From NCBI GenBank assembly GCA_945949475.1, contig CAMFET010000002.1, positions 1 through 38,345 on the forward strand: DNA of 38,345 nt, written 5' to 3'. The stretch's first letter is position 1. The number at the start of each line of letters is the position of its first letter. The notes beneath the pieces were generated by a model. That model was not told where the DNA came from and made no database searches. It was given only the letters and a program-made list of their open reading frames with translations. Below, in pieces: positions 34,772-38,345 of this stretch. This DNA comes from an uncultured Phascolarctobacterium sp. GTDB lineage: Bacteria; Bacillota; Negativicutes; Acidaminococcales; Acidaminococcaceae. The position numbers and the translations under genes are program-made.

Positions 34772-34802
34772 AATGTGAGAAAGTCAAGGACTTTCTCACA
34801 TT
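34772..34802. repeat. Perfect 14-bp inverted repeat
   Basis: AATGTGAGAAAGTC-AAG-GACTTTCTCACATT. Confidence 0.97.
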
Positions 34803-35341: not shown

Positions 35342-35743
35342 ATGACAACTTTTTCAGATAGACTCAGATATTTTATGGAGCAAAAGGGCCTAAAGCAAGC
35401 CGATTTGGTGGAGAGAACAAAGATAAATAAATCATCCATCAGCGAATATCTTTCAGGAAATTACGAGCCTAAACAAAGAAATATATATAAACTGGCCGTT
35501 GCCTTAGGCATTAAGCCAAGCCAGCTTATGGGTGTAGAAGAGGACCAGCCCGCGGCCCCTGCCACCACTGCCAACGCCATGGAGCTCAGCGAGCGGGAAA
35601 TACTGCTCATAAAAAAATACCGCCAGCTGGACGCTGACGGCCAAGAGGATGTAGAGGATTTTGTTTCCATGAAGCTGGCCAAGGCCCAGCGCAAAGCTGA
35701 GGAGGCCATGACGGCAGAGGAAAAAGAAGAGGCTTTAGGGTAA
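35342..35743 (+). CDS. CI-like XRE repressor
   Basis: FSDRLRYFMEQKGLKQADLVERTKINKSSISEYLSGNYEPKQRNIYKLAVALGI. Confidence 0.85.
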   Translation: MTTFSDRLRYFMEQKGLKQADLVERTKINKSSISEYLSGNYEPKQRNIYKLAVALGIKPSQLMGVEEDQPAAPATTANAMELSEREILLIKKYRQLDADGQEDVEDFVSMKLAKAQRKAEEAMTAEEKEEALG

Positions 35744-35779: not shown

Positions 35780-35808
35780 TTGACAAAAATACTATGTTTG
35801 CGTATAAT
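35780..35808 (+). promoter_or_regulatory. Consensus sigma-70 promoter TTGACA-N17-TATAAT
   Basis: Exact -35 (35780-35785) and -10 (35803-35808) hexamers with 17-bp spacer. Confidence 0.9.
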
Positions 35809-35813
35809 AGAGG

Positions 35814-35887
35814 CACGGTGAGCGCCGGGTCCCCTACGGGGGCCGGTACGGAAAGACCTCCTCTGTTATGCAGAGGAGGTCTTTTTT
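35814..35887 (+). ncRNA. Structured ncRNA upstream of Abi gene (candidate abiF-type RNA)
   Basis: Starts just after a consensus promoter; GC-rich hairpin CCGG(GU)CCCC-UACG-GGGGCCGG, then terminator; no ORF. Confidence 0.7.
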
Positions 35888-35888
35888 T
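35854..35888 (+). terminator. Rho-independent terminator between ncRNA and abi ORF
   Basis: AGACCTCCTCTG-TTATG-CAGAGGAGGTCT-TTTTTT, 12-bp stem. Confidence 0.9.
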
Positions 35889-36848
35889 ATGAAAGCATTC
35901 AAAACAATTGATGAACAAGTAGCTATTCTCAGGCAGCGTGGTTTGGTTATAGATGACGAAGATCGTGCTAAAAAGTATCTTTTGAGTCAAAACTATTATA
36001 ATCTTATTAACGGATATGCGAAATTTTTTCCAAGGGAAAACGAAAACTATACTTCAAATACAAGCTTTGATGAAATTACTAGCCTTTACATTTTTGAAAG
36101 AGATATAAAGCAGACGCTGCTTTTGGGTATTCTTGAGGCTGAAACGCATCTAAGGGCTATTTTCTCATATCGATTTTCTGAAATGTTTAAAGATGAACCC
36201 TATGCCTATTTAAGTATAAACTCCTTTGAAAAGGAAAATGCACTTTCAATTATACAAACCATATCAAGCTTGTCTAAAACAATACGCTCTTACGAAAGCC
36301 ATAATAGGCACAGCAGCATCGCCCATTACATAAGAGTGCACGGAAGTGTTCCCATATGGGTTTTGGTTAATTATATAAATTTTGGTGAATTACGTCATTT
36401 GTTGAAATACTCAACAAATGCTTTGCAAAATAGAATAGCTAAGGATTTTTGTGAATTTATTGAGCAAAATATTCCTAATGCTTCTGAACCTTTTCACCCT
36501 GAAACACTAAATAGCTTTCTTGATAACATCAACGATATCAGGAATATATGTGCTCACAATAACCGTCTTTTGGGTTTCCGCTGTCACCAGAGCACTAAAT
36601 ACTGGGCACCTTTGCACACGAAATATAATATTCTGCCAAATGATAGCAGACGTAGCGCATATGAGATATTTTTAATTTTGCAGTGCTTTATAAGCAAAAA
36701 CGAATATGCTATGCTGCACAATACTTTGAGAAAGCGTTTTAGAACTCTAAGTAGAAAACTGAAAACCATCCCAATAAACAATATTTTATACGAACTTGGC
36801 TTTCCCAATGACTGGCATATTAATACCGATAAGCTCGAACAAATTTAA
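35889..36848 (+). CDS. Abi_2 / AbiF-AbiD-like abortive infection protein with HEPN RNase motif
   Basis: KTIDEQVAILRQRGLVIDDEDRAKKYLLSQNYYNLINGYAKFF N-terminus; C-terminal RNICAHN (R-X4-H). Confidence 0.85.
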   Translation: MKAFKTIDEQVAILRQRGLVIDDEDRAKKYLLSQNYYNLINGYAKFFPRENENYTSNTSFDEITSLYIFERDIKQTLLLGILEAETHLRAIFSYRFSEMFKDEPYAYLSINSFEKENALSIIQTISSLSKTIRSYESHNRHSSIAHYIRVHGSVPIWVLVNYINFGELRHLLKYSTNALQNRIAKDFCEFIEQNIPNASEPFHPETLNSFLDNINDIRNICAHNNRLLGFRCHQSTKYWAPLHTKYNILPNDSRRSAYEIFLILQCFISKNEYAMLHNTLRKRFRTLSRKLKTIPINNILYELGFPNDWHINTDKLEQI

Positions 36849-36862
36849 GGGAGGCTGATTGT

Positions 36863-38083
36863 ATGTCCATCATCACAAGGAAAACAGGCACTAAGCGCTA
36901 TTCCTACTCCATATGCACGGATGAGATTCTGCCCAATGGCCGGCACAAATATATTAACGGCCCGTATTTTGCTACTAAGAAGGAAGCTAAGGAAGCAGAA
37001 GCCACTGCCTTGGCCCAGCTGCAGACCGGAACCTATACGGAGCCAACCAAGATGACCGTCAACGAGCTATTGGAAACAGTCATTGGCCTGAAGGCAGTAT
37101 TAAGGCCCTCTAGCATCTCCTCCCTCAACAGCTTTGCCAAGCGTGTGAAGTCCCAGCCACTGGGAGCCATGCGTCTGAACAAGGTCACGCCCATTGACAT
37201 AGAGCGCTATAGGCTTTTCCTCTTCACTGAATCGGGCCTTGCCAACCAAACCATCAGAGAAGAGCTGTCCTTTATCCGCTCCTCATTTGCGTGGGCCGTG
37301 GATAATGATTTGCTAGGTAAGAGTCCGGCCCGCCGCCTAAAGCTGCCACCCAAGGAACCGCCCAAGGGCATGCATGTGCCCATAGAAATCCTGCTACAAA
37401 TGCTCAGGATCATCAAAAAATATGATTACTTTAATCTATATATGCCATTCCTGCTAGGAGGCATGTGCGGTATGCGCATCAGTGAGACGCTGGCCGTGCG
37501 CGATGATGTATTGGACGGCAGCGATGTGGCTGTTACTAATAACCTGCTACGTGAAAATGGCAGGCTGCAGTTTACCTTACTCAAGACACGCACATCTGCC
37601 CGTGACATCCCTCTAATTTCCTTTGTACGCCACGAAATAGAAGAGTACAAGGGTTTTATCGCGTTTGCCAAAAAAGAAGCGCTACGGAAGCGTAAGGAGC
37701 TTCTAGCCAGTCCTGGCTTTATCGCTGAAAGCAGTGACCCTGCGTGGAAAAATAATTTAGGTCTGCTCATTGTGTTTCCTGATGACGGCCGAGGCATGTG
37801 CCGTGACCATGTAGAGCGCAGATGGCGCAAATTTAAGGAGCGGTGCCCTGAATGGTTAGAGCTTGTGAAAAAATATCCACTGCTTGCCGGTATGCGCCAC
37901 CATGATTTTCGTCATAGCTTTGGCAGTAACATGCGCGATAGAGGGGTGCCGATAGCTGATATCAGCGAAATTCTCGGTCATGCCGATGTATCCTTCACGG
38001 CTAAAACATATGCATTGCCCTTGCAGGATACTCATAAAAAGGCAATGCTCTTATACGAAAAATCCATTGAAAAACTACTATAA
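36863..38083 (+). CDS. int: Tyrosine recombinase / phage integrase
   Basis: MCGMRISETLAVRDD...HDFRHSFGSNMRDRGVPIADISEILGHADVSFTAKTYA; adjacent to attR. Confidence 0.93.
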   Translation: MSIITRKTGTKRYSYSICTDEILPNGRHKYINGPYFATKKEAKEAEATALAQLQTGTYTEPTKMTVNELLETVIGLKAVLRPSSISSLNSFAKRVKSQPLGAMRLNKVTPIDIERYRLFLFTESGLANQTIREELSFIRSSFAWAVDNDLLGKSPARRLKLPPKEPPKGMHVPIEILLQMLRIIKKYDYFNLYMPFLLGGMCGMRISETLAVRDDVLDGSDVAVTNNLLRENGRLQFTLLKTRTSARDIPLISFVRHEIEEYKGFIAFAKKEALRKRKELLASPGFIAESSDPAWKNNLGLLIVFPDDGRGMCRDHVERRWRKFKERCPEWLELVKKYPLLAGMRHHDFRHSFGSNMRDRGVPIADISEILGHADVSFTAKTYALPLQDTHKKAMLLYEKSIEKLL

Positions 38084-38279: not shown

Positions 38280-38290
38280 TCAGCTTTTTC

Positions 38291-38340
38291 AATTTGGTCG
38301 GGGCGGCGAGATTCGAACTCACGGCCTCTTGTACCCGAAA
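38291..38340. repeat. attR: 50-bp direct repeat
   Basis: Identical to 203-252. Confidence 0.93.
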
Positions 38341-38345
38341 CAAGC
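38295..38345 (-). tRNA. tRNA-Pro(CGG), 3' part, truncated by window end
   Basis: Minus strand: CTTGT-TTCGGGT-ACAAG anticodon arm, GTGAG-TTCGAAT-CTCGC T arm, CGCCCCG-A-CCA. Confidence 0.85.

Follow-up and report, generated by a model that had tools for sequence, protein, structure and literature searches.

Genomic setting and organisation of the cassette

The window, i.e. the whole stretch of 38,345 nucleotides that was analysed, is a tailed-phage prophage with terminase, portal, major head, and tape-measure genes. Between its CI-like repressor gene and its integrase gene, as claimed in the preliminary description, it carries a cassette composed of the following features (coordinates, strand, description):

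35342..35743, plus strand, CI-like helix-turn-helix repressor gene (Pfam HTH_19/HTH_3; PHROG transcriptional regulator/repressor), co-directional, upstream, and the expected source of read-through
35780..35808, plus strand, sigma-A/70 promoter TTGACA-17-TATAAT (12/12 consensus matches; best site in the region)
35804..35813, plus strand, candidate antiterminator segment ATAATAGAGG (-10 box and discriminator), complementary to 35860-35869 and upstream of the expected start site
35815..35888, plus strand, predicted antitoxin-type non-coding RNA of about 73 nt (fold z-score -6.3; anatomy kept in homologues)
35822..35849, plus strand, bulged hairpin composed of an outer stem (35822-35828/35843-35849), an inner stem (35831-35834/35839-35842), and a UACG tetraloop
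35852..35888, plus strand, intrinsic terminator, 14-bp stem and U-tract (from fold and sequence)
35860..35869, plus strand, CCTCTGTTAT, loop and upper part of the 5' arm of the terminator, partner of 35804-35813
35874..35879, plus strand, Shine-Dalgarno sequence AGGAGG, within the terminator 3' arm
35889..36848, plus strand, gene for an AbiF/AbiD-type HEPN protein of 319 aa, putative toxin (Abi_2 PF07751, PADLOC AbiD, PHROG 2158, 8VZ6)
36540..36557, plus strand, RNICAH (R218-X4-H223) HEPN RNase motif, residues 218-223
36863..38083, plus strand, tyrosine integrase gene (Pfam Phage_integrase; PHROG 1)

The exact consensus promoter, the strong terminator, and the GC-rich bulged hairpin of the preliminary description were all retrieved, the hairpin core (CCGG-GU-CCCC-UACG-GGGG-CCGG) occupying positions 35825-35846 and the outer stem being lengthened to 35822-35849 on the basis of the homologues. 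The transcript, earlier put at roughly 75 nt, is indeed predicted to be structured; its length is here put at about 73 nt, counted from a start at 35815 that was inferred from the position of the promoter. The 74-nt segment has a folding energy of -44.7 kcal/mol, compared with -25.6 ± 3.0 kcal/mol for shuffled sequences. The open reading frame list places the start of the Abi_2 gene at the ATG at 35868, within the terminator loop. However, the ATG at 35889 is likely the actual start, because both the homologues and the ribosome site favour it, so that the gene probably begins directly after the U-tract, as described earlier. A second Shine-Dalgarno sequence ahead of the start codon was not seen at this locus. 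A minus-strand promoter behind the TATAAT-like loops of the terminators was considered and rejected, as this locus has CATAAC and no such promoter was predicted.

The placement between cI and int recurs in streptococcal and staphylococcal phages, and several homologues have a CI-like or XRE gene on one side and an integrase gene on the other. In 25 of the 26 close homologues, the upstream ORF nearest to the cassette is co-directional, as determined by a simple, mechanical ORF calling, and this ORF is often CI-like or ImmA-like, judged from its sequence. No plus-strand terminator was found between the cI stop codon and the cassette promoter. Elsewhere in the window, a 14-bp AT-rich hairpin with a T-run (AATGTGAGAAAGTC...GACTTTCTCACATT; 34772-34802) forms a strong terminator. 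The end of the window (38290-38345) resembles part of a minus-strand tRNA gene truncated at the edge, perhaps the attachment site; ARAGORN found no complete tRNA there.

The Abi_2/HEPN protein

The Abi_2-like nature of the encoded protein was borne out by a match with PF07751 (E 2e-36; 126 bits versus a curated cut-off of 25.6), by PADLOC AbiD (1.5e-51), and by a match along the full length with PHROG 2158, annotated as abortive infection resistance protein (4e-76). In addition, the protein is similar over its full length to 8VZ6 (profile E 1e-19), the solved structure of PbAbiF with its ncRNA (PMC12737573), with the R-X4-H motif aligned. The C-terminal RNICAH motif, noted before as an HEPN RNase signature, aligns with RNSCCH of 8VZ6 in this profile comparison, and its residues R218, N219, A222, and H223 are invariant among 26 homologues. 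Toxic RNase activity was shown for AbiFCd of Clostridioides difficile, R202 and H207 being required for this toxicity (PMC12373285). By analogy, the product is a putative HEPN RNase toxin.

A further 12 genomes of the same class, prophages of Enterococcus and Streptococcus, and many satellite phages of Streptococcus contain homologues with 38-55% identity. Of the close homologues examined that had sufficient upstream sequence, all but a badly anchored one (L034) showed the order promoter, hairpin, terminator, ORF. One genome of the same class (G718) contained three matches (L029 and two further ones), of which one is a broken copy interrupted by a stop codon and another is a fragment.

Conservation and classification of the cassette RNA

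A conserved structure upstream of homologous Abi_2 genes, on which the preliminary description had depended, was found. Among the 16 close homologues that aligned without gaps, the hairpin base pairs were kept in 94% of the cells, with the consensus AGYGCYGGNAUCUCUACGGGGACCRGYGCGGA. Furthermore, five pairs had changes on both sides, and the compensatory changes amounted to 19 double-change cells versus 5.5 expected, a number reached in 0 of 500 shuffles.

Membership of the cassette RNA in the Rfam abiF motif was not supported. The covariance model RF03085 gave no match with the cassette RNA at its gathering score of 37, nor even at E ≤ 10, and no match in 20 homologous loci; it did match the positive control, phage phiC2 (37.6 bits). 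RF03085 motifs also occur upstream of Abi_2 genes and possess a two-part stem with an asymmetric bulge, but their consensus is CCCGCCAAGCCUCU...GGCGGG with an 11-nt loop and a 3' bulge, whereas the bulge of the cassette RNA is on the 5' side and its loop is of the UNCG type. With its own promoter, structured RNA, terminator, and abi gene, and with a secondary structure conserved across homologues, the cassette probably belongs to the wider class of AbiF-associated antitoxin RNAs. Matches with the Rfam families PyrR, MCS4, and Phe_leader were far under gathering and were dismissed as chance matches with the terminator.

Complementarity between promoter and terminator

Already in the first upstream regions compared, the -10 box and discriminator of the promoter proved to be reverse-complementary to the upper part of the terminator 5' arm together with the loop. 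At the present locus, ATAATAGAGG and CCTCTGTTAT form 10 bp, including one G-U pair. The corresponding pairs are TTTAGAATGAA/TTCATTCTAAA in pneumococcal prophages, TATAGAATGAA/TTCATTCTATA in enterococci, and AAACTAGA/TCTAGTTT in a further locus (L071). Among 26 non-redundant close loci, the best complementary stretch averaged 8.4 with the own partner, compared with 5.1 when the promoters came from other loci and 4.6 after shuffling, and stretches of at least 7 occurred in 77%, 14%, and 3% of the cases, respectively. None of 20000 permutations of the partners gave a value as high as that observed, and spacer or transcribed-leader windows of equal length never reached a stretch of 7. An antiterminator within the cassette's own transcript was hence rejected, the leader window being without complementarity. 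In 18 held-out loci, i.e. those outside the set read when the pattern was first spotted, the mean duplex energy was -11.3 kcal/mol versus -6.9 kcal/mol for permuted partners (0/20000). The pairing register was the best one per locus and controls were treated alike, except in the double-change count, in which 8 of the 11 pairs had changes on both sides and 42 double-change cells were found versus 13.6 ± 3.0 expected. Shared ancestry is unlikely to have caused this covariation, since the control partners came from the same clade. The promoter-terminator pairing is thus well supported by the sequence comparison. Counted from the start of the -10 box, its coverage peaks at positions +5 to +8 and declines by +10 to +11, just before the expected start site. 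The sole Shine-Dalgarno sequence is part of the terminator 3' arm in about 20 of the 26 close homologues, and the start codon follows it at a distance of 5-8 nt.

Not all close homologues displayed strong pairing: it was absent in L023 and present only with a mismatch in L031 and L068. Clear pairing was also absent in most distant AbiF relatives and in C. difficile phiC2. As to individual distant loci, an AbiF relative on a Leptotrichia plasmid (29% identity; L028:1830-1980) has two complementary blocks, ACAAGUGA/UUACUUGU and UUAUUA/UAAUAA, and a further distant locus (L041; 28% identity) has a 9-bp match.

Proposed mechanism and alternative explanations

Starting from the observed anatomy, hairpin covariation, and promoter-terminator covariation, the cassette is very probably an AbiF/AbiD-type prophage module of an RNA antitoxin and an HEPN RNase toxin. 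The RNA-controlled HEPN module of the preliminary description is hence retained as regards family membership, the match with 8VZ6, and the covarying hairpin, and is not supported as regards the Rfam abiF motif. It is reasonably probable that in this module the origin of the transcript sets the balance between toxin mRNA and antitoxin RNA. A layer of antitermination added to the core module, which the sequence pattern suggests, has slightly better than an even chance, and the chances are about even that the promoter doubles as an antiterminator and the module thereby senses lysogenic or foreign read-through transcription.

According to this proposal, the strong own promoter would mainly yield the short structured RNA ending at the terminator, and almost no full-length mRNA. 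As in the homologues, this RNA would bind the HEPN dimer and keep it inactive, while the terminator would also conceal the ribosome site of the toxin gene. Transcription entering from upstream, whether as read-through from cI in the lysogen or from any newly arisen start, would produce an RNA that includes the -10 box and discriminator. Because the pairing ends before the start site, the antiterminator would be present in such an upstream RNA and lacking in the RNA from the own promoter. In the upstream RNA, the -10/discriminator segment would pair with the loop and 5' arm of the terminator while the 3' arm is still to be transcribed, allowing the polymerase to pass and exposing the ribosome site. 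Translation would need an open terminator, because the Shine-Dalgarno sequence sits in its 3' arm. How much toxin mRNA is made relative to antitoxin RNA would therefore depend on the transcription start point. The module may have an anti-phage role, such as the abortive infection or superinfection exclusion put forward in the preliminary description, or a maintenance role, and it may be expressed in the lysogen, as was also put forward there.

The folding predictions constrain this proposal. For this locus, the terminator hairpin is calculated to be more stable than the antiterminator at equilibrium, by about 11 kcal/mol, and the read-through RNA is predicted to adopt the terminator form. Therefore, antitermination would have to be kinetic. 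In the growing RNA, the antiterminator is predicted to remain the most stable fold up to a point 3-10 nt short of full exposure of the terminator stem. The equilibrium stability difference favours an alternative explanation, namely a plain module of the AbiF/RCd22 type, in which a leaky terminator sets the toxin level, the RNA inhibits the protein, and the complementarity plays no role in antitermination. Such a mechanism has been demonstrated for RCd22-AbiF (PMC12373285), and phiC2 manages without clear pairing. However, a plain module leaves the coevolution of promoter and terminator arm, as well as its boundary at the start site, unexplained, so that this explanation is possible but rather unlikely.

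Alternatively, the two sites could be a pair of DNA operators, with a regulator such as CI binding the -10 box and the palindromic terminator and thereby looping or repressing the promoter. Indeed, the sites overlap the -10 box and a palindrome, and a CI-like gene often adjoins. Yet, where the terminator arms differ through G-U pairs, the promoter agrees with the 5' arm in 24 cases and with the 3' arm in two, and it also matches 53 of 70 terminator loop positions; as the promoter follows the 5' arm and the loop, pairing of RNA is favoured over a palindromic DNA site. Moreover, G-U pairs are tolerated (16 of 253 pairing cells) and the motif varies freely among loci provided that pairing persists, making a DNA operator pair very unlikely. 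Least probable is the opposite sense, in which the pairing would stop upstream read-through from making toxin, for instance by a locked leader or an extended antitoxin stem: the observed promoter-terminator pairing itself would fit, and IS elements with a start site inside an inverted repeat are generally known to follow the same logic, fold-back protection being known for the IS10 and IS50 transposase mRNAs, but the pairing occupies the terminator 5' arm instead of the ribosome site and leaves AGGAGG free.

Comparison with known systems

AbiF modules are held to be ancestors of Cas13. The cassette adds to the AbiF/AbiD systems of RNA antitoxin and HEPN toxin that were shown experimentally, namely RCd22-AbiF, PbAbiF, and AbiD1. 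The closest studied system is RCd22-AbiF of the C. difficile prophage phi027, with the order promoter, ncRNA, terminator, abiF; its RNA neutralises AbiF when supplied either in cis or in trans, and the amount of abiF mRNA is limited by its terminator (PMC12373285). Both systems are located in a prophage, have a SigA promoter, a short structured RNA, a terminator, and an abiF gene co-transcribed with the RNA, and encode an Abi_2 family protein with R-X4-H. In contrast, RCd22 is about 100-130 nt long, contains two RF03085 motifs, has a separate ribosome site, and lies in the lysis module, whereas the present cassette has one hairpin of another sequence class, its Shine-Dalgarno sequence in the terminator arm, and a location between cI and int. 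Phage phiC2 of C. difficile shows no clear promoter-terminator pairing. The Prevotellaceae system PbAbiF-AbiFr (Zilberzwige-Tal et al.), as described in PMC12373285 and PMC12737573, has an upstream ncRNA too and its protein is alike over the full length, the similarity being remote and the comparison concerning the proteins alone.

In the case of lactococcal abiD1, a short RNA of 50 nt ends at a terminator that immediately precedes the gene, and full-length mRNA arises by read-through only; the ribosome binding site follows the poly-U and is sequestered in a second stem-loop, activation being due to phage Orf1 and cold (PMC2661086). The present cassette shares the short RNA ending at an upstream terminator, the read-through design, and the folded translation initiation region, and differs in the position of the ribosome site and, as proposed here, in the mode of activation; an RNA antitoxin is not described for AbiD1 in that study. 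Type III toxin-antitoxin systems (ToxIN, TenpIN, CptIN) likewise have an RNA upstream of an RNase gene with a terminator between them, but the toxin here is of the HEPN type and not ToxN-like, and tandem repeats as in type III antitoxin RNA are absent, both this locus and its homologues having a single hairpin.

The literature searched contained no report of a promoter-overlapping antiterminator in AbiF-like modules, and no earlier report of a Shine-Dalgarno sequence serving as terminator 3' arm or of promoter-terminator pairing was found; these last two features are absent from the preliminary description as well. The RNA class is apparently uncatalogued and the regulatory layer apparently undescribed. 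This class, missing from Rfam, recurs in satellite phages and in prophages between cI and int, and a gene-only annotation hides it. What triggers expression of the AbiF toxin was posed as a question in the C. difficile study (PMC12373285), and the present clade offers a concrete candidate, namely the origin of the transcript. Use of a promoter also as antiterminator could be a general design in RNA-antitoxin modules.

In distant Abi_2 genes (25-35% identity), the order of the elements is mostly retained, but the RNA sequences are different ones and the U-tract is followed by a ribosome site of its own. Several of them (L005, L006, L008, L026, L027, and L039-L053) have mutually different hairpin RNAs in the order promoter, hairpin, terminator, and RF03085 did not match the RNAs scanned at these loci; Rfam seems to cover just part of the Abi_2-associated RNAs. 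Scanning viral contigs for the pattern yielded neither further Abi loci nor orphan RNAs having a promoter and a T-run. Finally, two stretches from genomes of the same class (L087:1501-1537 and L088:1501-1537) matched RF03085 above gathering, with no evident adjoining Abi_2 ORF in the fetched stretch; these abiF RNAs are possibly orphan or decayed antitoxin RNAs.
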